64,000 nt of DNA, taken from Zymobacter palmae (GTDB lineage: Bacteria; Pseudomonadota; Gammaproteobacteria; Pseudomonadales; Halomonadaceae). The translations under genes were made by a program, and so were the position numbers. Each line of letters opens with the position of its first letter. The stretch's first letter is position 1. The notes beneath the pieces are model-generated. The model had not been told where the DNA came from. It was given only the letters and a program-made list of their open reading frames with translations, and ran no database searches. Shown here piece by piece: positions 843-47,409 of this stretch. The stretch spans positions 2,204,035 to 2,268,034 of the forward strand of contig NZ_AP018933.1 of the NCBI RefSeq assembly GCF_003610015.1, in the 5' to 3' direction.

Positions 843-2325
843 AGTAAGACTCTCCTGCTTAGCGGTCATATCATTATCGTTGGCGACACAGCGTTCATCG
901 CTGTGTCCTACCAGCATAGTGCACTCCCCTGCCCATAGAGCGGATAGGCCATGCGAGCCTAATAAGACCCCAATGTGCAGGCAACGTGCTGTAAATCAAA
1001 CTTAACGGATCTGGCGCAGAGTCACGCCCCTTGCCACCAAGTGCACAACATATCACCGGGCACATCTGACGGTCTTGTCTATCACTCCGCCCAAGCACAT
1101 GATCAAGCCCAAGACCCCGGGCTTCCCACCAAACGCCCCTTTCAACCTTGGTGACCCCCTGTAGTGGTGCCAATAGCGCCCCCAGGCCTCGCTCGTGCTG
1201 CATCGTGCCTATACCTGCACGCCCGAGTCCAATCTCATCATGGCACGCAACATTATCATGCCATTGCACACTAGGGCCCTGCCACGATATGGGGGCACTA
1301 CAAGCGTAACGGTCTAATCACACAGGGTAAAACATCGTCCATACCACTGCGCCCACGCCGCCACCTTGGCACCACTTCAAGCAGATTCATCGGCCAATAC
1401 GGCGCAACACCGTAGCCTCAACGGTCACATTGCATTGCTGGCAAGGCGGATGATTAGATACGTCAAAGCGCCTATCTTCGCTGCCTTATAATTAGGCCTC
1501 CTTTTCAACGTACCGTCACGATAATTACCCTCCAAGAAAGTAGGTATTTATAGCGATCCTCGGATTTTCCTACCCACTATTTCATGACGATACCGCTATA
1601 GAAAGCCCCACCTTCAGAACACTTACAACCGGCGCTGTGTGACGCAATACTGATGGTAATTCAGGCCACAGTGGTTGATGTCGCCAAGCCTCCCCGCGCG
1701 AGAAGCGGCACCGCAGGCGTCCCCCTTCAGCGTTTCCCTTTCCCATGTCAGTACTGTGATGACCCCATCGACACAGCAGGCTTTATAGAGCACTGCGTAA
1801 GCCACCTACATATAAAAAATTATTCGCCCCAACTTATAACAACTAAATAACTTCGCGCAGGCATATATAAAATGTATGTATCAGTATGAATAACCCGATC
1901 ATCACAATATCTTCCTACTACAAATAAACAGCCGTACTCATAACAATAAGACAATGCATCTATCAGCGAGCCGTGGCGCTCTGCGAAGGGCATAACCCTT
2001 ATCACTATGTCCATTAGCACAGGTAGGAGAACGGCTACCAACCGCGCCATAGCGGCAGTTACCTCGTGTGATATCCTGCACTTCCCATTGTTTTTGCTCA
2101 GGCGTATCGTACCGTTACTTCTTATTGATGGTGCTGGGCGTAAGGAGCATATGCTCGGACGATCTATACATGTCCAATGATTGTAACTATCCATATAAGC
2201 AATCATTCTTTGACGGCGCATAGGCAATTTACTGACACTGTTATCACACTGCAGAAAAGTCACTTCAATTTCCTGTCGCACCGCACTATGCCTGCGCCGT
2301 CGCCACTCATGAAGGGTGCATATTG
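843..2325. other. 1.5-kb stretch without a convincing gene
   Basis: Between the TerC-family gene and cysJ I see no open frame with family features or a good ribosome site. The longest minus-strand frames (895-1269 and 1820-2338) have low-complexity, Cys/Arg/His-rich translations typical of non-coding frames, and the second overlaps the cysJ start. Base composition becomes AT-rich from about 1500. The region must hold the promoters of the divergent TerC gene and of the cys cluster. A TTGACG at 2210-2215 is a possible -35 box, but no good -10 follows at normal spacing. It may be decayed coding sequence. Confidence 0.5.
885..907 (-). promoter_or_regulatory. Perfect hairpin in the leader of the TerC-family gene
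   Basis: A 9-bp perfect inverted repeat, GACACAGCG/CGCTGTGTC with a five-base loop, lies about 40 bases upstream of the GTG start of the TerC-family gene. No U-tract follows it, so it is not a classical terminator. Genes of this family are often controlled by the manganese-sensing yybP-ykoY riboswitch. A GGGGAG string lies upstream, but the distance is short for that element, so I call only a leader hairpin. Confidence 0.4.
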
Positions 2326-4143
2326 ATGCCAATTTCACCTCTGAACGAACAGCAGCTCAAGGCGCTGCATGACATCATCGACGGTCTGAACGATCAGTCG
2401 AAGGCTTGGCTCTCGGGATATCTGTGGGGGGTCAGTCAGTCTGGCCAGACGCCGCTATCGACCCAGAGCCAAGGCGAACCCGCCAGCGCGGTGCCGGCCG
2501 CCGCTGCCCCCGTCACGATCACCCTGCTGTCAGCGTCTCAGACCGGTAATGCGCGCCATGTTGCGCAGCAGCTGCACGACGAACTCAGCAGTGCCGGCCT
2601 GACGGTGACGCATACCCCCGTCAGCGAGTACAAACCCAAGGCACTGGCAAACGAGCAGTATGTCATCGTCGTTACATCGACACAGGGTGAAGGCGAACCG
2701 CCGGAAGAAGCCTTTGCCTTCTTTAAGTTCCTCGCCTCTAAGAAAGCCCCCTCTCTCAATCAGCTGCATTTTGCAGTGCTGGGGCTGGGCGACAGCACCT
2801 ACACGCACTTCTGTCAGGCAGGCAAGGACATCGATCAGCGACTTGAAGCGCTCGGCGCTTCTCGCCTGCTGCCGCGCGTAGATGCCGACGTGGACTACGA
2901 TGACATCGCTCGTGAATGGCGTGGGCAGGTACTGGACATACTCAAGCAGCACGTCGCGAGCAACAGCGCAAGCACTGCATCGGTAACCACGTCGGCATCG
3001 TCAGTGACGCCGCTTGCCGCCTCTGCTTGGCACCGCGACACGCCGTTCGAAGCCTCTATTCTGGTCAACCAAAAAATTACAGGGCGCAGCTCCGACCGCG
3101 ATGTCCGCCATATTGAAATTGACTTGAGCGGCTCGGGCCTGACCTACACCCCCGGCGATGCGCTCGGCGTGTGGTACGAAAACGATCCTGCGTTGGTCGA
3201 TGAATGGCTGTCCGTCACAGCGCTCTCCGGTGAAGAACCGGTCAGCGTTCAGGACCAGACTCTGTCGCTGCGTGAAGCGCTGCTGCGCCAGTTCGAACTG
3301 ACCGTCAATAGCACGCGCCTGATTGAGCGATATGCCAGCGTTGCCGGCGATGATGAACTGGCGGCACGGGTACGCGAAGGCCGTCCGGCGCTGCAGGCGT
3401 ATGCCGACTCGACATCTCCTATCGACATGCTCCGCCAACATCCGCTGTCTCACCCCATCGACGCGGCAACGCTGGTCAGCTGGCTGCGACCGCTGGCACC
3501 ACGCCTGTACTCCATCTCATCCTCTCAGGCCGAAACCGACGATGAAGTCCATATCACGGTCGGGGTTGTCCGCTATGTCATCGACGACCACGAACGCCGT
3601 GGTGGTGCTTCCGGCTATCTCAGCCGCTTGACGGAAGACGACAAGGTACGCGTATTCATCGAACACAATGATAATTTCCGCCTGCCGGAAGACCCCACTA
3701 CACCGGTCATCATGATCGGTCCGGGCACTGGCGTCGCACCGTTCCGTGCCTTCATCCAGCAGCGTGCCACAGACAACGCCAGCGGACCCAACTGGCTGTT
3801 CTTCGGCAACCCGCATTTTCTGGAAGACTTCCTGTATCAGGTGGAATGGCAGCAATACGTCAAGGATGGCGTGCTCAACCGCATTGACCTGGCCTGGTCG
3901 CGCGATCAAGCCCAGAAGGTCTATGTGCAGGACAAACTGCGCGAACAGGGAGCCGATGTCTGGCAGTGGCTGCAGGATGGCGCCCACCTGTATGTCTGTG
4001 GCGATGCTTCGCGGATGGCCCGCGATGTGGATAGCGCGCTGCTTGGCATCATCCAACAGCATGGCGGCCTCTCAGCCGAGGACGCCGACGATTACCTGAC
4101 GACGCTTCGCTCCGAGCGCCGCTACCAGAGAGACGTCTACTGA
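2326..4143 (+). CDS. cysJ: Sulfite reductase [NADPH] flavoprotein alpha subunit CysJ
   Basis: This flavoprotein transfers electrons from NADPH through FAD and FMN to the CysI hemoprotein, which reduces sulfite to sulfide in the cytoplasm. The 605-aa protein has an N-terminal flavodoxin-like FMN domain with SASQTGNA at residues 69-76. The FAD domain carries RLYSISSS near 392 and the NADPH domain carries [10 protein letters not shown] near 465. It ends in the family-typical [11 protein letters not shown]. Length matches E. coli CysJ (about 599 aa). I use the ATG at 2326, with GAAGGG upstream; an in-frame TTG at 2323 is possible. The stop overlaps the cysI start in TGATG, so the two are translationally coupled. 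It heads the cys cluster. Confidence 0.97.
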
Positions 4144-36363: not shown

Positions 36364-36384
36364 TCCGCGCTACGATGTACACCA

Positions 36385-36415
36385 AGCCCCCGTGTCATGC
36401 ACTCGGGGGCTTTTT
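36385..36415 (+). terminator. Intrinsic terminator of ettA
   Basis: A perfect 8-bp stem AGCCCCCG/CGGGGGCT with an 11-base loop is followed by TTTTT. It lies 22 bases after the ettA stop. Confidence 0.9.
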
Positions 36416-36482
36416 CTTGGGTGGCAGTCAGCCTACCACCGTTCGCACACGATAGACGCCGCCGAGAATCGCGCGGCATTCA

Positions 36483-38678
36483 TCAACGCTTCCTTTCCTT
36501 GGTGACATCCTCAGCTACCTTGATCAGCTGGACACGTAGCGTGTCGATAGCCCCGCACACCTTTTTGGTTCGCACCACGGGCGTCCACAGCAATGCGTTG
36601 ATCTCCTCAAGCTTGTCTTTCAGTGGCTGAAGGGCTTCACGCTGGCGCTGATGCAGAGCATGGCTCAACTCGCGATAGGCTTTGCGGATGTTCTTCTCGG
36701 CCGCTTTACGCTGCTGGCTTTTCCGATAATCATCACTGAAGTAGCCCCAGATCGACTTGAACAACCCGGTCAGCAGGGTGACATCGCCCAATGGCGCCAT
36801 GCCCCACCTGACAGGAGCCCACGACAACGGCGCTCCATCGACCACGCCCTCGATCAGTCCGTGGAGGTCGATGCCGCGATCAACATGCACGTCAATAGCA
36901 AGCTCACGGGCCATCGCCGAGGCATTTATACGCTCATGACAAAGCAGAATGTCTTTGGCATGTTCTTCGAAGCGTTCGATGATGCCCGCCACCTGCCTCT
37001 GGCACTGCTGGACCTTACCCTCGAACTGCTCCGGCAGACCGTCCTGAACCGCCCCTTGTTCTTTTTCCATAATGGCCTGCAGTCTGACCTCAAACTCATC
37101 ATTGCTGATATCTTCTTCGATCTGGGCATTGATCTGCTGCCGCACTCGAGCACCAAACGCCATGATCGATTGACGCCCTATAGCGCTGACCTCTTTGTCC
37201 AGCCGGGCACGCGCCCTGTCCAGCTGGAGCCCCGCATAGCCCGTCTCCTTATGCAGCTCATCTTGAAGCGGCAAGAACTGCTCACCCACCAACCGTGCTA
37301 TGACAGTACACGCGCTGTCGATCGCTACGCGGATCTTGTTCGCGTTGGCATGCTGAATCTTGCTCTCGGTGTCCTTGATCACCTCCTGCATCAGCAACTG
37401 GTTGAAGTTCCCGACACCGGAGGCGTCGAGCAGCCGTTCAGCCGTCAGGGCATCCATAAAAGTCTTCCTGCTTAGTGCCCTGCTCGACAGTGGCGTCAGG
37501 CAATCGGCCAGCGCCAGAAAGCCCGGCAATGCGCTCAATGTCGTGCTGCGCTTGTAGTGTCGCCCTAGCGCCTCACGCATCTGCCTGTCCAACTCGGTCA
37601 GCCCAGACTGATCGTCATTACTGACCAGCGCGACCTTGCGCAACACTCTAGGGTTAGAAACAGGCTTGTTGAAGACAGTCCAGACTTCCGTCTGGGCACC
37701 AAGATGCACTTTGATTCTCTCAAGCGTTTCTGCATCATCATCCGTCGACGGCGGTGCGGCTCGGTGAGTGACATAGAAGACCGCATGCGCACATTTGACC
37801 GCGTTCTGGATGTCCAGGTGAAAGTGTTCGTTGCTGACCTCAATACCCGGCACGTCCAGAATTCGGAATGACCGGCCATTGACCATGAACTCGTACTGGC
37901 GAATTCCATGCGAGGTACCAGAGCGCCCGCTATTAATAATCGAGCCGTCTTCATAGGCTTCCAACTGATGACGATTATCGAGTGCTGTCTGGTGCTGCTT
38001 CATAATGTTCTGATGCTTGAGCTGCGCGTCGTGCTGCTGGCGCTGCAGACGTTCGATGACCAGCGCATGCTGCTCGGGCAGCCGGGAGAACTGCTGCTGC
38101 AATTGCTTCAGCATTGCGTCCTCAGGAAGCCGGCGCACCCGAGAGAACAGACGCTGAGGGATACTCGCCGTGCACCTGCTATCGCTGATGCGCTGGCGCA
38201 ACTCGCTTATCTTCCGCGCAAGATCGGTTTCCTGCTGCCCATACTGATGATCGGCTTCCGCCATCTTCTGCCGGGCATCGGCCTGACGGCGTTCGAACTT
38301 GTCGGCCTGCTGTTCCAGCAGATTCAGGTCATGCTCGTACAGTCCGAATTGCTTCTGTAGCGCACGAAACGCCTGTCGCTGCTCCTGCTTGCCCTCCTCC
38401 TTGAGCAAAATTCTGAGGCACTCGATCAATGTCGACTTGCCGGCGTTGCGCTCACCATAAAAGGCGATGGTGAACGTGTTCCACTCAGCACTGTCGCGCA
38501 GATCATTCATCAGCTGGCGTAGCATACCCTCGATGCCATCAAGCACCACTCTGGCCGTGGCGTATTCCACTCTCTGCCGACCATCAGAGATGTCATGCTC
38601 AAGCGCACTGATGACGTCATGGATCTGTTCGAGCACGCCATCATAAAGGCACGCTGCAAAATTGTTAGTTTTGGTCAC
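36483..38678 (-). CDS. Large dynamin-like GTPase with coiled-coil insert in the G domain
   Basis: I do not recognise a named family. The 731-aa protein has a P-loop GERNAGKS at residues 75-82, a G3 motif LDVPG at 274-278 and a G4-like NKPV at 337-340 (the usual Asp is missing). Between G1 and G3 lies a long Gln/Lys/Glu-rich heptad-like stretch (about 95-240), predicted as coiled coil. Residues 410-600 are again helical, then a hydrophobic stretch (about 625-660, with WAPVRWGMAPLGDV and LLTGLFKSIWGYF) could touch membrane, and the C-terminus is basic helix. This order resembles bacterial dynamin-like proteins. The start is GTG 38678 with TTAGGA upstream. It is a single-gene unit converging on ettA. 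Cell role unknown; membrane remodelling or phage defence are possibilities only. Confidence 0.72.
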   Translation of the reverse strand: MTKTNNFAACLYDGVLEQIHDVISALEHDISDGRQRVEYATARVVLDGIEGMLRQLMNDLRDSAEWNTFTIAFYGERNAGKSTLIECLRILLKEEGKQEQRQAFRALQKQFGLYEHDLNLLEQQADKFERRQADARQKMAEADHQYGQQETDLARKISELRQRISDSRCTASIPQRLFSRVRRLPEDAMLKQLQQQFSRLPEQHALVIERLQRQQHDAQLKHQNIMKQHQTALDNRHQLEAYEDGSIINSGRSGTSHGIRQYEFMVNGRSFRILDVPGIEVSNEHFHLDIQNAVKCAHAVFYVTHRAAPPSTDDDAETLERIKVHLGAQTEVWTVFNKPVSNPRVLRKVALVSNDDQSGLTELDRQMREALGRHYKRSTTLSALPGFLALADCLTPLSSRALSRKTFMDALTAERLLDASGVGNFNQLLMQEVIKDTESKIQHANANKIRVAIDSACTVIARLVGEQFLPLQDELHKETGYAGLQLDRARARLDKEVSAIGRQSIMAFGARVRQQINAQIEEDISNDEFEVRLQAIMEKEQGAVQDGLPEQFEGKVQQCQRQVAGIIERFEEHAKDILLCHERINASAMARELAIDVHVDRGIDLHGLIEGVVDGAPLSWAPVRWGMAPLGDVTLLTGLFKSIWGYFSDDYRKSQQRKAAEKNIRKAYRELSHALHQRQREALQPLKDKLEEINALLWTPVVRTKKVCGAIDTLRVQLIKVAEDVTKERKR

Positions 38679-39140
38679 AGTAAAATCCTAAGGTCTCATT
38701 GGTTTGCTATAGAATTTTTGCGTTGGACCATCCCTGCCCCCGGCAACCCAAAGCTGCCATTCTCCCTGCCGCTCATTCCCACGGGTACGCCAGAATGACC
38801 GGTACGCCAAATGCATCAACAAATTGAAAGGTTTCGATGCAGCGGACGTTTATTTACAATCGAGTTACAACTTTACGGAGGGTAGCTGATGATATCGCCC
38901 CCTCTCTTTTATAGATAACGCATGAATAACAGATATCAGTGTCGCTTACAGTAAGCGCCACCTTATTTAGAAACAGCAGTAAATTCCCACATATCGAAGA
39001 TTATCGTTATTTGCGCCTCATTAGAGGCTACAAGATAATGACACCGTAAGTTATCCCCATGTATACAAGGCCAATCTCTTTAAATAATTACAAATATAAT
39101 TAAATGATTACCATTCTTTACATTCAGGCTTCATAACAAC

Positions 39141-39225
39141 AGCACAGCACAGCACAGCACAGCACAGCACAGCACAGCACAGCACAGCACAGCACAGCAC
39201 AGCACAGCACAGCACAACACAGCAC
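39141..39225. repeat. AGCAC pentanucleotide microsatellite, 17 units
   Basis: Fifteen perfect AGCAC copies (39141-39215) are followed by one variant AACAC and one more AGCAC. The tract lies in non-coding, otherwise AT-rich DNA about 460 bases upstream of the dynamin-like GTPase start and about 415 bases past the 3' end of the lpxL-like gene. Long pure tracts of this type are prone to slipped-strand length change. Confidence 0.97.
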
Positions 39226-39571
39226 AGCGGTCATCTAAATAAGCAGGCAACTTTGATATCGCTATAATTAAATACGTAGATGATATTGACCAATATTCAT
39301 TTCATAAATAAAAGAGATTAACGATATGCGCAGAGCGCACCGATGAAACATATATCATTTTTACTAAAAATACGCCAATAAAAGCAAGTAGCAACCACTT
39401 ATGCTAAACACGTGATCATTTAAACAAACAAGGCCATAAGTTATCACCTGGATAAATCAGGTGTAATTATCAAGGGAAGGGGGGAATGGCGTCTATCAAC
39501 GCCAGAAGTATAACGCCAGATATAGGGGATGCCGCTTTCATCTGGCAGAAAGCACTCACGCATAGCCACGC

Positions 39572-44153: not shown

Positions 44154-44732
44154 ATGATCACTCTGAACAAAAAAGCATGCGTGCTCGCTGCTGTCGTTTC
44201 TGCACTGGCTTCCGGTAGCGTCTTTGCTGCAGATGCCACGGGTACTGACCAGGGTTCTGGTCGCATTCACTTCACTGGTACGGTCATCAACGCTCCGTGC
44301 TCTATCGCACCGGGTGATGAAGACATCAACGTCAACCTCGGCCAGATCGCTAACAAAGTACTGGAAGCCGGCAACAAATACTCCCAGAACGTTAGCTACA
44401 CCATCCACCTGCAGGACTGCTCTCTGAGCGCAGCCAGCGCTTCTACCGGTACGACTTACAAAGACGTATCCAAAGTCGCTGTTAAATTCTCCGGTGCGAC
44501 CAACGCCAACAACGCAGACCTGCTGGCCAACACTGGTGGCTCTCAGGGTCTTGGTATCCGTCTGATCGACGCCAACGGTGCGCTGCTGAAAGTGGGCGAT
44601 ACCAGTGCTGACATCATGCTGGCCAACGGCAACAACGAACTGACGTTCGCTGCCCGCGCAGAATCTGATGGTACCGCTGTTCAGGTCGGTCCGATCAAAG
44701 GTCAGGCTACTTACGCCCTGAACTATAAGTAA
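44154..44732 (+). CDS. Major fimbrial subunit (type 1 pilin family)
   Basis: This is the probable main structural pilin of a chaperone-usher fimbria. The 192-aa precursor has a clear signal peptide ending near SGSVFA (residue 25), the first cysteine of the pilin disulfide in INAPCSIAPGD (C49), the second in HLQDCSLSA (C89), and a C-terminal beta strand ending ATYALNYK with the penultimate tyrosine used in donor-strand interactions. CAGGAG precedes the ATG. Codon use is strongly biased, suggesting high expression. A hairpin separates it from the usher gene, which would allow much higher pilin than usher output. Confidence 0.93.
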   Translation: MITLNKKACVLAAVVSALASGSVFAADATGTDQGSGRIHFTGTVINAPCSIAPGDEDINVNLGQIANKVLEAGNKYSQNVSYTIHLQDCSLSAASASTGTTYKDVSKVAVKFSGATNANNADLLANTGGSQGLGIRLIDANGALLKVGDTSADIMLANGNNELTFAARAESDGTAVQVGPIKGQATYALNYK

Positions 44733-44775
44733 GAGCTGCTCGACGCCTTTGCTTAGGTAGAGAGGGCACGACAGC

Positions 44776-44805
44776 GCGCATGGAGGCAAGGATGTCTCCA
44801 TGCGC
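44776..44805 (+). promoter_or_regulatory. Hairpin between pilin and usher genes
   Basis: A perfect 10-bp stem GCGCATGGAG/CTCCATGCGC with a ten-base loop lies between the pilin stop and the usher start. No T-run follows. It is well placed to stabilise the pilin message and to limit transcription or processing into the usher gene. Confidence 0.55.
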
Positions 44806-44847
44806 CACTGCGTGACATGACGATGACAACAACCTCATGGTCCTTGC

Positions 44848-47409
44848 ATGAACCACGTCCTGAACAGAAAAGTGCCGACCTTTCGCACCCGCGTGACTGC
44901 ACGGAAGCTGCGTGCGGTGCTGCTATTGGCCATGGCGATTACAGGCTGCAATGCTCACTCAGCATGGGGCGTGCAGTTCAACACTGACATCATCGACACC
45001 AAAGATCGCAGCAACGTCGATCTGTCACGCTTTGAAGTCGCAGGCTATATTCCTCCCGGCGAATACTTGCTGGAACTGTCCGTCAACGGGCACTTTCTTC
45101 CCGGACAACAGTTAATCCGCTTCATCGCTCCTTCAGCCAATACATCGGCCCAAGCCTGCCTGACACCGGAAATGGTGCAGGGATTCGGGCTAAGCGATGA
45201 CGTTACGCACCGCCTCACCACTTGGCATGATGGCCAGTGCGTCAGTTTCAATGGCGAGCCTGATGTGCGGATCAATTTCGATCAGGCACAGCAGCGTTTG
45301 TCGCTTTCATTCCCTCAGGCCTGGATGCGCTACAAGAACCAGGACTGGGTCGGCCCCGAAGCATGGGATCACGGTGTTTCAGGGCTGCTCTTCGACTACA
45401 ACATCATGGGTAGTCGTTATGACCCCGATGAAGGATCCCGTACAGATAGCGTCAGCAGCTACGGTACGCTAGGGGCTAACCTCGGGGCATGGCGTCTGCG
45501 AGGTGATTACCAGTACTCCTATTCTCACTCTCCCGGTTCTCCAGAAAATCATCGTTTCGACTGGAACCAGGTCTATGCCTTCCGCCCTCTTCCCTCGATC
45601 AATGCCCGCCTGACGCTGGGGCAAAGCTATCTGCGTTCTGATATTTTCGATAGCTTCCGTTTCGTCGGGGGATCATTGGTCAGCGATCAGCGAATGCTGC
45701 CGCCCACCATGCGCGGCTACGCTCCACAGGTCACTGGGGTCGCCCAGACCAATGCACGCGTTATCATCAGTCAGCGTGGACGCGTGCTGTACCAGACCAA
45801 GGTCACACCAGGTCCATTTGTCATTCAGGATCTGTCTGATGTCATCAACGGACTGCTGGACGTTCGCGTTGAAGAGGAAGACGGCCGCGTTAACGTCTTC
45901 CAAGTCAACGCCGCCAGCGTGCCATTTTTGACCCGCAAGGGCACCATCCGTTACAAGGTGGCTTCAGGTAAGCCAACACTCGGTATCGACAACGACGAGC
46001 TGTCACCGCTGTTCTATACCGGTGAGATGACCTACGGTCTGTTCAACGATACCTCTTTGTATGGCGGTACCATTCTTACCGAAAAGAATGACTATAACGC
46101 GCTGGCACTCGGGGTCGGTCAGAACCTGCACGACCTAGGGGCGATCTCTTTTGACGCGACTAGATCCGATGCCAAGCTCGAACAATACGAACGCAAGTCG
46201 GCCTACAGTTATCGCGTCAATTATTCAAAACGTTTTGACAGCACCAGCACCCAGATCACCTTCGCGGGCTATCGCTTCTCGGAACGTAACTTCCTGAGCA
46301 TGAGCCAGTACATCGACAAGCAAAACCATTTGCTCAATGTTCGCGATGACAAACAGACCTACACACTGACCGCCAACCAGTACGTGCCGTGGCTAGACAT
46401 GACCGTCTACGCTTCCGCACTTCGCCGCACTTACTGGAACGATGAGAAATCGGATAGCTATACCCTCTCTCTCAGCAAGACCTTCGACCTTGGCCCGTTC
46501 AAAGGGGCATCAGCAACGCTGAGCGGCAGCAAGGCCGCTTACGGCGATGACAACGGTAACCAAGTCTATCTGTCACTGACGCTACCGATCTCGAACGGTC
46601 AGCAACTGGGCTACGACATGACCCACGATAGCGACGGTGGCTATCTGCAAACCGCCTCTTACTACAACAGCGAAGACCCGAACAACACTTGGCGTCTCAG
46701 CGCGGGCGGCACCGCTTCCCAGATCAACAGTGGCGAAGGCGTGGTGCGTGCCGGCTATGTGCACACCGCTTCAACGGGTCAGTTGAGCATCGATGGCAGC
46801 AACAGCCAGCATAACTACCGCTCCATGAGCGCCAACTGGTACGGCTCGATCACAGCTACACCTCACGGTGCCGCCTTCCATCAAAGCAGCATCGGTAATG
46901 AACCTCGCTTGATGCTGGATACCAATGGCGTTCCGAACGTGTCCTTCAACGGTGGTAATGCACGCACCAACAGTGCTGGCATCGCGGTACTCGGTAGTAC
47001 ACCGAGCTACCAGACCACCGATACACGCGTCGATATGGGCCGCCTGCCCGACGACACCGAGGTCTACACCAGCATGCTGCAGGATACCCTCACCGAAGGG
47101 GCGATCGGTTACCGCAAAGTTCGCGCCGTCCGCGGTCAGCACTTCTTGGCTCAGGTTCGTCGCGAAGATGGTTCGCTCCTGCCGCTAGGCTCCGCTGTCA
47201 CTAATCGTAAGACCGGTATGGACATGGGCATCGTCGGCGACAGCGGCATGGTCTACCTTTCAGGTATCAACGAAGGCGATCTGTTGTCGGTGTTCTGGAA
47301 CGATCGTGAACAGTGCCGTATCCGCATCATTGGCACCCACATGGTTCAGGACGGCGCGGCAAGCGAAACCTGCTACACCGTTACCGGCAACGATACAGAG
47401 CAAAAGTAA
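44848..47409 (+). CDS. Fimbrial outer-membrane usher protein
   Basis: The usher is the outer-membrane pore that receives chaperone-subunit complexes and assembles the fimbria. The 853-aa precursor has an N-terminal export signal, an N-terminal binding domain starting VQFNTDIIDTKDRSNVDLSRFE, the beta-barrel region with PPTMRGYAPQVTGVAQTNARV near residue 290 and a plug-type GPFVIQDL, and the C-terminal domain with a Cys pair (EQCRIR ... SETCYT). Length is normal for FimD/PapC. The signal region contains a lipobox-like AITGC, unusual for an usher. It precedes the chaperone gene, the reverse of the E. coli fim order. Confidence 0.95.
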   Translation: MNHVLNRKVPTFRTRVTARKLRAVLLLAMAITGCNAHSAWGVQFNTDIIDTKDRSNVDLSRFEVAGYIPPGEYLLELSVNGHFLPGQQLIRFIAPSANTSAQACLTPEMVQGFGLSDDVTHRLTTWHDGQCVSFNGEPDVRINFDQAQQRLSLSFPQAWMRYKNQDWVGPEAWDHGVSGLLFDYNIMGSRYDPDEGSRTDSVSSYGTLGANLGAWRLRGDYQYSYSHSPGSPENHRFDWNQVYAFRPLPSINARLTLGQSYLRSDIFDSFRFVGGSLVSDQRMLPPTMRGYAPQVTGVAQTNARVIISQRGRVLYQTKVTPGPFVIQDLSDVINGLLDVRVEEEDGRVNVFQVNAASVPFLTRKGTIRYKVASGKPTLGIDNDELSPLFYTGEMTYGLFNDTSLYGGTILTEKNDYNALALGVGQNLHDLGAISFDATRSDAKLEQYERKSAYSYRVNYSKRFDSTSTQITFAGYRFSERNFLSMSQYIDKQNHLLNVRDDKQTYTLTANQYVPWLDMTVYASALRRTYWNDEKSDSYTLSLSKTFDLGPFKGASATLSGSKAAYGDDNGNQVYLSLTLPISNGQQLGYDMTHDSDGGYLQTASYYNSEDPNNTWRLSAGGTASQINSGEGVVRAGYVHTASTGQLSIDGSNSQHNYRSMSANWYGSITATPHGAAFHQSSIGNEPRLMLDTNGVPNVSFNGGNARTNSAGIAVLGSTPSYQTTDTRVDMGRLPDDTEVYTSMLQDTLTEGAIGYRKVRAVRGQHFLAQVRREDGSLLPLGSAVTNRKTGMDMGIVGDSGMVYLSGINEGDLLSVFWNDREQCRIRIIGTHMVQDGAASETCYTVTGNDTEQK

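Follow-up and report, generated by a model that had tools for sequence, protein, structure and literature searches.

What is a solitary dynamin-like GTPase with nearly 200 residues lodged between its nucleotide-binding motifs doing in the genome of Zymobacter palmae? The gene lies in a stretch of 64,000 nucleotides that was analysed as a whole (the window), and the initial annotation left the choice between a little-known subfamily and a mechanistically different GTPase. By sequence it encodes an unsplit LeoBC, the larger partner in the dynamin-like LeoBC–LeoA pair. The PADLOC model of LeoBC (PDLC03841) covers residues 7–707 of the protein (profile positions 13–576 of 601; E = 2.8e-112, 375 bits), and the separate models of LeoB and LeoC match residues 211–692 (3.9e-38) and 4–167 (9e-22), respectively. 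The family motifs GxxxxGKS in the P-loop, DxPG and NK are all kept. The full-length match, together with the bacterial dynamins that head the Foldseek search described below, bears out the description as a dynamin-like GTPase. The subfamily is little known, as was supposed, yet it has already been named: LeoBC in PADLOC, and LeoB with LeoC in the available text of PMC4159319. The sequence NKPV (residues 337–340), singled out as a departure from NKxD at G4, is present but is no oddity, the relatives' consensus FNKRITNP being likewise devoid of the NKxD aspartate.

Table 1. Features of the Z. palmae leoBC locus, in positions of the window.
Feature	Positions	Strand	Remarks
LeoBC-like dynamin-family GTPase, single chain, orphan	36483..38678	minus	GTG start, 731 aa; PADLOC LeoBC 2.8e-112
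N-terminal helices, residues 2–63, neck/bundle part	38490..38675	minus	AF2 model
G1 P-loop GERNAGKS, residues 75–82	38433..38456	minus	family T77 is R here
G-domain insert, residues 92–242, alpha1 to switch I	37953..38405	minus	
Coiled-coil arm 1, residues 115–170	38169..38336	minus	AF2 model; heptad test
Hairpin tip helix, residues 173–181	38136..38162	minus	AF2 model
Coiled-coil arm 2, residues 185–234	37977..38126	minus	AF2 model; heptad test weak
Switch I (G2)	37905..37949	minus	DGSIINSGRSGTSHG against DGxIIGDGRSDFTR in relatives; G249N, D254G, T256S
G3 LDVPG, residues 274–278	37845..37859	minus	nearby conserved residues altered: G281V, E283N, V286F
G4 FNKP, residues 336–339	37662..37673	minus	NK without Asp, likewise in relatives
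Paddle region, residues 585–655	36714..36926	minus	poorly hydrophobic, low pLDDT
leoA start site of relatives	36364..36482	minus	TGATG stop/ATG overlap, 16-codon frame only, no LeoA

Generic domain models recover the protein in part. In Pfam, MMR_HSR1 scores above its cut-off; Dynamin_N reaches 21.8 bits against a curated cut-off of 27, a weak test since the insert interrupts the domain, and G-alpha reaches 30.9 bits against 48.8. Such pieces of GTPase models are what is expected of an interrupted domain. A phmmer search of PDB sequences gave no significant match, and neither did a profile of the family alignment. A scan of genome contigs, seeded with the motifs flanking the P-loop in four insert-bearing proteins, recovered 76 relatives, all at or below 41% identity to Z. 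palmae LeoBC. Insert-free relatives are probably under-counted by this choice of seeds, and near-copies (such as L018/L095, L067/L099 and L082/L100) are kept in all counts.

The PADLOC LeoBC model is broader than the insert-bearing group. It gives 543 bits to a sister protein from Pseudomonas (L021), 375 to Z. palmae, 350 to the insert-free L082 and 344 to the more distant L103, whose G domain is compact and which matches at 7.6e-103. At E ≤ 1e-15 the model matched 13 of 398 genomes of the phylum, and 1e-100 was passed only by Z. palmae and by G626, whose protein has a compact G domain; the best matches of the remaining genomes were weak, at 1.8e-25 and above. The G626 genome encodes a pair of dynamins with compact G domains (L103 and L115) that PADLOC names LeoBC and LeoA, and our LeoBC alignment profile barely detects L103. 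The PADLOC name hence spans more than one lineage.

The spacing that drew attention to the protein is real: the P-loop GERNAGKS (75–82) and G3 LDVPG (274–278) are separated by about 193 residues, close to the 200 first noted. The insert between them (residues 92–242, 151 amino acids) consists of 18% Gln, 11% Arg and 9% Glu. An AlphaFold2 model, built from an alignment of 75 LeoBC proteins, folds it into two long helices (115–170 and 185–234) joined by a tip helix (173–181), with ten-residue means of pLDDT between 80 and 96 and a dip to 70 at the tip. The model of sister L021 contains a matching hairpin (helices 115–169 and 185–240), and in both models the root of the hairpin adjoins switch I. 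Heptad periodicity exceeds that of shuffled sequences in the first helix (21 of 2000 shuffles as high) and is weak in the second (265 of 2000). The Gln/Lys/Glu-rich coiled coil of the initial annotation is upheld as a predicted coiled coil, the insert being modelled as an antiparallel coiled-coil hairpin between alpha1 and switch I.

The G domain itself is not split. The model shows an ordinary compact domain (strands 69–75, 260–266, 269–275, 299–304, 331–337 and 375–381; alpha1 81–91) from which the hairpin projects between alpha1 and beta2, so that structure prediction returned the compact fold foreseen as an alternative but, contrary to that alternative, an insert that is real and not misread. 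Foldseek ranked the bacterial dynamin BDLP first (1.9e-6), followed by SynDLP and IniA, with query TM-scores of 0.16–0.22 over the top seven rows; below the dynamins came mostly G-alpha subunits and mitofusins, as they also did for L021, whose matches include LeoA (4aur). The Foldseek ranking agrees with a dynamin fold of G domain, neck and trunk, the TM-scores being a weak point. VIA-align placed EF-Tu first (Z 15.0, 189 residues), level with mitofusin 1 (Z 14.4, 316 residues) and therefore does not single out dynamins. Neither septin nor CrfC was named among the 50 matches listed for each fold search (Foldseek with the Z. palmae and L021 models, and VIA-align).

A parallel to the insert lies outside dynamins. 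In G-alpha subunits a helical domain is inserted between alpha1 and switch I, the point at which LeoBC carries its hairpin, and G-alpha appears among the Foldseek matches while remaining below the Pfam cut-off. The G-alpha insert is a globular helical domain, whereas LeoBC combines a coiled-coil hairpin with a dynamin stalk, and the likeness lies in the position of insertion. BDLP and DynA have compact G domains. BDLP of Nostoc (2j69), the first match to the Z. palmae model, belongs to a different subfamily, as does DynA of Bacillus subtilis. We saw no description of the insert in open-licence papers, and the word 'coiled' is absent from the available text of PMC4159319.

The insert is common to the relatives and so is not a chance feature of Z. 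palmae, which also disposes of a new kind of GTPase created by a split G domain. We gauged it by the spacing between the P-loop Lys and the G3 Asp in 78 proteins including that of Z. palmae (L063 gave no spacing and was left out), and 72 of them carry it. The distance is 193 residues in 37 proteins, 190–192 in four, 210–212 in nine, 251–261 in 16, 152–160 in three and 314–386 in three; the remaining six, at 48–54, are without an insert. With a spacing of 193, the Z. palmae protein keeps the hairpin length exactly. On a quick tree of 75 rows (LG+G4, insert columns removed, SH-aLRT as the only branch support) the length classes, six in all, change 10 times where shuffles need 31.7 changes; the rows lacking an insert fall together on one side of a branch. 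The mean difference to outgroups is 0.80 in the insert, 0.57 in the G domain and 0.75 in the stalk. A sequence that diverges most while its length is kept is as expected for a spacer or lever. Eleven Pseudomonas-type LeoBC frames (L033, L038, L039, L044, L046, L051, L062, L066, L092, L096 and L097) are 1076–1150 amino acids long; their hairpins are longer by 68 residues, and their N-termini are extended by some 280 residues, unless an upstream frame merely stays open.

These lengths bear on the view that the hairpin makes LeoBC a GTPase of a new mechanistic class, in which a coiled coil does the switching in the manner of Rad50 or SMC proteins. The root of the hairpin beside switch I in both models, the stepped lengths that follow the tree and the G-alpha chains ranked next to the dynamins would suit such a class. 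Six of the 78 proteins nevertheless manage without a hairpin: L078, L082, L084, L085, L087 and L100, of the Acetobacteraceae/Novosphingobium type, all have LeoA behind them (cut short in L084) and are natural hairpin-less variants. Moreover, the PADLOC LeoBC model also fits the compact L103, and long coiled coils are common spacers. We regard a new class as improbable.

The insert is also where the family's chain is divided in the split pairs aligned here. According to the available text of PMC4159319, LeoB and LeoC of enterotoxigenic Escherichia coli (ETEC) represent a dynamin gene split in two beside LeoA. Aligned with the single-chain relatives, the two ETEC H10407 chains together match Z. 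palmae LeoBC as members of the same family, and the break falls inside the insert. Our alignment assigns switch I, with the conserved DGxIIGxGxxDFT, to LeoB, whereas the text available in PMC4159319 places switch 1 in LeoC. In ETEC the chain is divided over two genes, LeoC ends in a hydrophobic stretch and LeoA adjoins (PMC4159319, as far as available), while Z. palmae has one chain with a coiled coil, and LeoA was not found. A second LeoC|LeoB split, unlike ETEC in sequence and likewise within the insert, occurs in L012 (G113, 1489–3614), where LeoA is next. Within the family of Z. palmae itself, genome G834 (L122/L123) repeats the ETEC layout, with LeoC of 250 and LeoB of 551 amino acids in separate frames, a hydrophobic stretch at the end of LeoC, and LeoA directly behind LeoB. 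Since the break lies where the single-chain relatives have a hairpin, this is a plausible place to cut the chain and still assemble it.

What distinguishes the Z. palmae gene is the lack of its partner. Among 86 loci with a LeoBC reading frame (L015–L101), 82 have at least 1 kb of downstream sequence, and LeoA lies downstream in 80 of these, mostly within 30 bp. The two exceptions are fragments: L020, whose LeoBC is interrupted by IS1216, and L089, which holds a piece of LeoC. LeoA of Luteibacter (L025), used as a query, had no match in the Z. palmae genome (99.65% complete, two contigs) and found LeoA in all three control genomes with LeoBC or LeoC and LeoB. A LeoA profile gave 18 matches at E ≤ 1 in the Z. 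palmae genome, two of them in leoBC and none of those elsewhere longer than 195 of 559 positions; Dynamin_N matched leoBC and, over short stretches, frames of 371–492 amino acids, a size fitting housekeeping GTPases. As in L025 and L026, the stop codon of leoBC shares bases with an ATG, but the frame opened by this ATG runs for only 16 codons. A leoA remnant in the flanking DNA was considered and rejected, as none was detected (best tblastn E 0.45). A leoA may once have stood at this locus, and a partner unlike LeoA may be encoded far away. With LeoA not found, the Z. palmae gene is not the two-gene LeoBC–LeoA system. Apparent decay of an entire pair can be seen elsewhere: on an Enterococcus faecium plasmid (L019) LeoBC–LeoA is broken into many frames, an apparent pseudogene, and on an E. 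lactis plasmid (L017) it is intact.

The surroundings of the gene give no sign of an operon, and the initial description of it as standing alone was correct. ettA is convergent and lies about 120 bp beyond the leoBC stop. Upstream, a gap of about 960 bp with no ORF of 100 amino acids separates leoBC from an acyltransferase-like (lpxL-like) gene in the same orientation (ettA, lpxL-like and alr are names read from translations). These neighbours look like housekeeping genes, and leoBC resembles the neighbouring genes in its GC content by codon position. Consensus promoters and terminators do not exceed shuffled counts. An RNA or tRNA landing site within the window was rejected, with no Rfam match at gathering score and no tRNA in the 64 kb. 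The upstream gap contains 18 copies of the pentamer ACAGC/GTGCT (39139–39228, 97% matches), which could vary in number by slippage. Elsewhere in the window (44154–47409), a fimbrial-subunit-like frame is followed by a large usher-like frame, both named by eye from their translations.

Comparison with relatives points to an inserted gene. The order ettA, lpxL-like gene, alr is kept in nine of the 12 relatives fetched (the other three are L148, L151 and L152), with no LeoBC there and 79–2609 bp between ettA and the lpxL-like gene. Gene order thus indicates that leoBC was inserted into a core gene block. In L144 (5660–7164), L149 (5660–7284) and L150 (3392–6000) the interval from ettA to the lpxL-like gene, where Z. 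palmae has leoBC, holds a membrane-protein-like frame of 443–462 amino acids; this site may be a minor hotspot for insertions. The survey of homologs and their neighbours proposed at the outset found LeoBC to be rare among kin, besides the near-constant LeoA described above. A match to the Z. palmae protein was present in one of 58 relatives (Z. palmae itself), in three of 369 genomes of the class (Z. palmae, one with a split pair and one with a weak match) and in three of 275 genomes of the family (itself, one protein at 33% identity and the ETEC-like pair). Its nearest rows in the tree are Luteibacter L025 (SH-aLRT 92) and then Pseudomonas proteins, and a tyrosine integrase lies upstream of LeoBC in Pseudomonas loci L021 and L024. 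Phage origin was rejected, the phage collection holding no match to Z. palmae LeoBC; five loci were found in IMG/VR.

The orphan has also departed from its relatives where they vary least. In columns conserved in at least 90% of the other rows, Z. palmae differs at 11 of 61, against a median of one over the 75 rows; the only rows with as many differences or more are L087, L095, L084 and L082. In near-invariant columns compared with six sisters it differs at 11 of 59 (one a deleted residue), while the sisters differ at 0–1 each (1 of 355 pooled), a contrast that is not a clean probability given the relatedness of the sisters. The altered positions include T77R in the P-loop, G249N, D254G and T256S in switch I, and G281V, E283N and V286F past DxPG. 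Six of the 11 changes fall in switches I and II (6 of 18 columns against 5 of 41 elsewhere; Fisher p = 0.07), which is suggestive only. The switch I pattern DGxII-G-x-G-xx-D-F/Y-T, near-invariant in 74 relatives and not known as family-defining, is broken. A Thr stands one residue ahead of the lost switch I Thr, and with this residue and the core motifs GxxxxGKS, DxPG and NK kept, GTP binding or hydrolysis may survive. Changes confined to Z. palmae outnumber those confined to a sister by 29:7 (L021), 23:12 (L025), 29:11 (L030) and 29:6 (L026). A frameshift in switch I was rejected, frame and spacing being exact.

The putative membrane-facing part is affected as well. The initial annotation took a late hydrophobic segment as a sign of membrane contact. 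That segment is the least hydrophobic of 74 aligned paddles, its best 19-residue Kyte–Doolittle mean being 0.90, against 1.50 for the next lowest and a median of 1.88. The Z. palmae model breaks the paddle helices seen in that of L021, the paddle being of low confidence in both. Membrane contact by the Z. palmae copy is doubtful.

These changes could mean that the gene is simply a decaying relic of a horizontally acquired LeoBC–LeoA island, now without function. No partner was found in the genome, the active site is changed and the paddle weak, and about 960 bp upstream are without a 100-residue ORF. The protein is the sole match in the 58 relatives and one of three in the 275 family genomes, and its end branch is long (0.88, against 0.52 for its tree sister L025, SH-aLRT 92), though not uniquely so, with 14 rows of the tree flagged as long, up to 1.93. 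The reading frame speaks against such a fate: neutral simulation to equal damage produced 7.1 stops on average and none in only one of 300 runs, while Z. palmae retains 731 codons without a stop. Indel events are few (two against L021, one against L025, and one or two across L021, L025 and L026), and the GC content by codon position is that of the neighbours. The rate of change falls with column conservation from 0.59 to 0.06, except that the most conserved columns climb back to 0.24 (p = 0.11). An intact frame with most conserved positions held makes long decay unlikely, and a long-standing pseudogene was rejected on the simulated stops; a functionless relic as such we consider possible, if unlikely.

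Intact frame, exact hairpin length, retained P-loop, DxPG and NK, and conserved columns that change less than variable ones might equally describe an ordinary working LeoBC that pairs with itself without LeoA, as many eukaryotic dynamins do, and tolerates the changed residues. Against it stand the 80 of 82 loci with LeoA, both exceptions being fragments, the changes in switches I and II, and the weak paddle. A partner may also be indispensable by analogy: Cj-DLP1 and Cj-DLP2, tandem heterotypic bacterial dynamins, are inactive unless both are present, according to the available text of PMC6104087. Their structures (5owv and 5oxf) are among the Foldseek matches to the LeoBC models, and Cj-DLP1 has an N-terminal assembly domain, with a G-domain insert not mentioned in the available part of that paper. 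A self-sufficient LeoBC therefore seems quite unlikely.

For the family as a whole, we picture a compact GTPase domain bearing a hairpin rooted between alpha1 and switch I. The hairpin would serve as a rigid lever or reach arm, its base moving with switch I. GTP would drive LeoBC and LeoA to pair through their G domains, a step proposed here by analogy with Cj-DLP1/2, and the hairpin might carry or read that state over a distance, coupling it to a contact made by its tip. The stalk and hydrophobic paddle would act on the membrane. In the Z. palmae copy, whose activity has presumably been lost, this normal cycle is made unlikely by the failure to find LeoA, the altered switches and the weak paddle, while the kept frame argues for another role or for recent abandonment. 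The reading we favour, with a probability of roughly 60%, is that Z. palmae carries an orphan single-chain LeoBC that no longer runs the normal LeoBC–LeoA cycle of GTP and membrane action. It would be either a recently abandoned remnant or a protein with a partner-independent role, for instance as a soluble coiled-coil scaffold; retention for such a role appears a little more likely than recent abandonment. A bolder and rather doubtful version is a retasked subunit, a partnerless soluble scaffold on a rod of fixed length, GTP-independent or weakly switching, in which the G-alpha-like insertion of LeoBC would be a ruler coupling nucleotide state to a distant target.

A defence role reaches the Z. 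palmae protein by inheritance. Databases and genome surveys annotate LeoABC as anti-phage (PMC13335696, PMC10999152 and PMC11811056, in their available text), and Eleos is called a dynamins-like defence system in the available text of PMC11811056. In B. subtilis infected by phage, lysis is delayed by DynA (PMC8844932, available part). The LeoBC profile of the pairs listed as 'dynamins' in PADLOC and as Eleos in DefenseFinder is shared with Z. palmae; their LeoA is not found there. Eleos, composed of LeoBC and LeoA, was reportedly tested against phages by Millman et al. in 2022. Among annotated loci, the LeoBC–LeoA pair of E. coli TC24 adjoins a type I restriction system, that of ETEC H10407 lies about 5 kb away from such a system, and that of Raoultella is next to TerY-like genes; Enterococcus loci have mobile-element and metabolic genes instead. 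PADLOC, run on ten selected neighbours at four sister loci, matched none but a WYL regulator and a glycosyl hydrolase, the latter similar to one portion of a CARF-fusion model. A phage-defence role of the Z. palmae copy derives from this annotation of LeoBC–LeoA pairs, no partner having been found, and no result supports an action of this copy by itself on membranes or against phages.

The break within the insert offers an answer to the puzzle, raised in the available text of PMC4159319, of why LeoC and LeoB exist as two halves of one dynamin. With its few discrete lengths, the insert opens the role of the hairpin to direct testing in a family that carries an anti-phage annotation, and the orphan copy of Z. 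palmae provides a natural test of LeoBC acting without LeoA.
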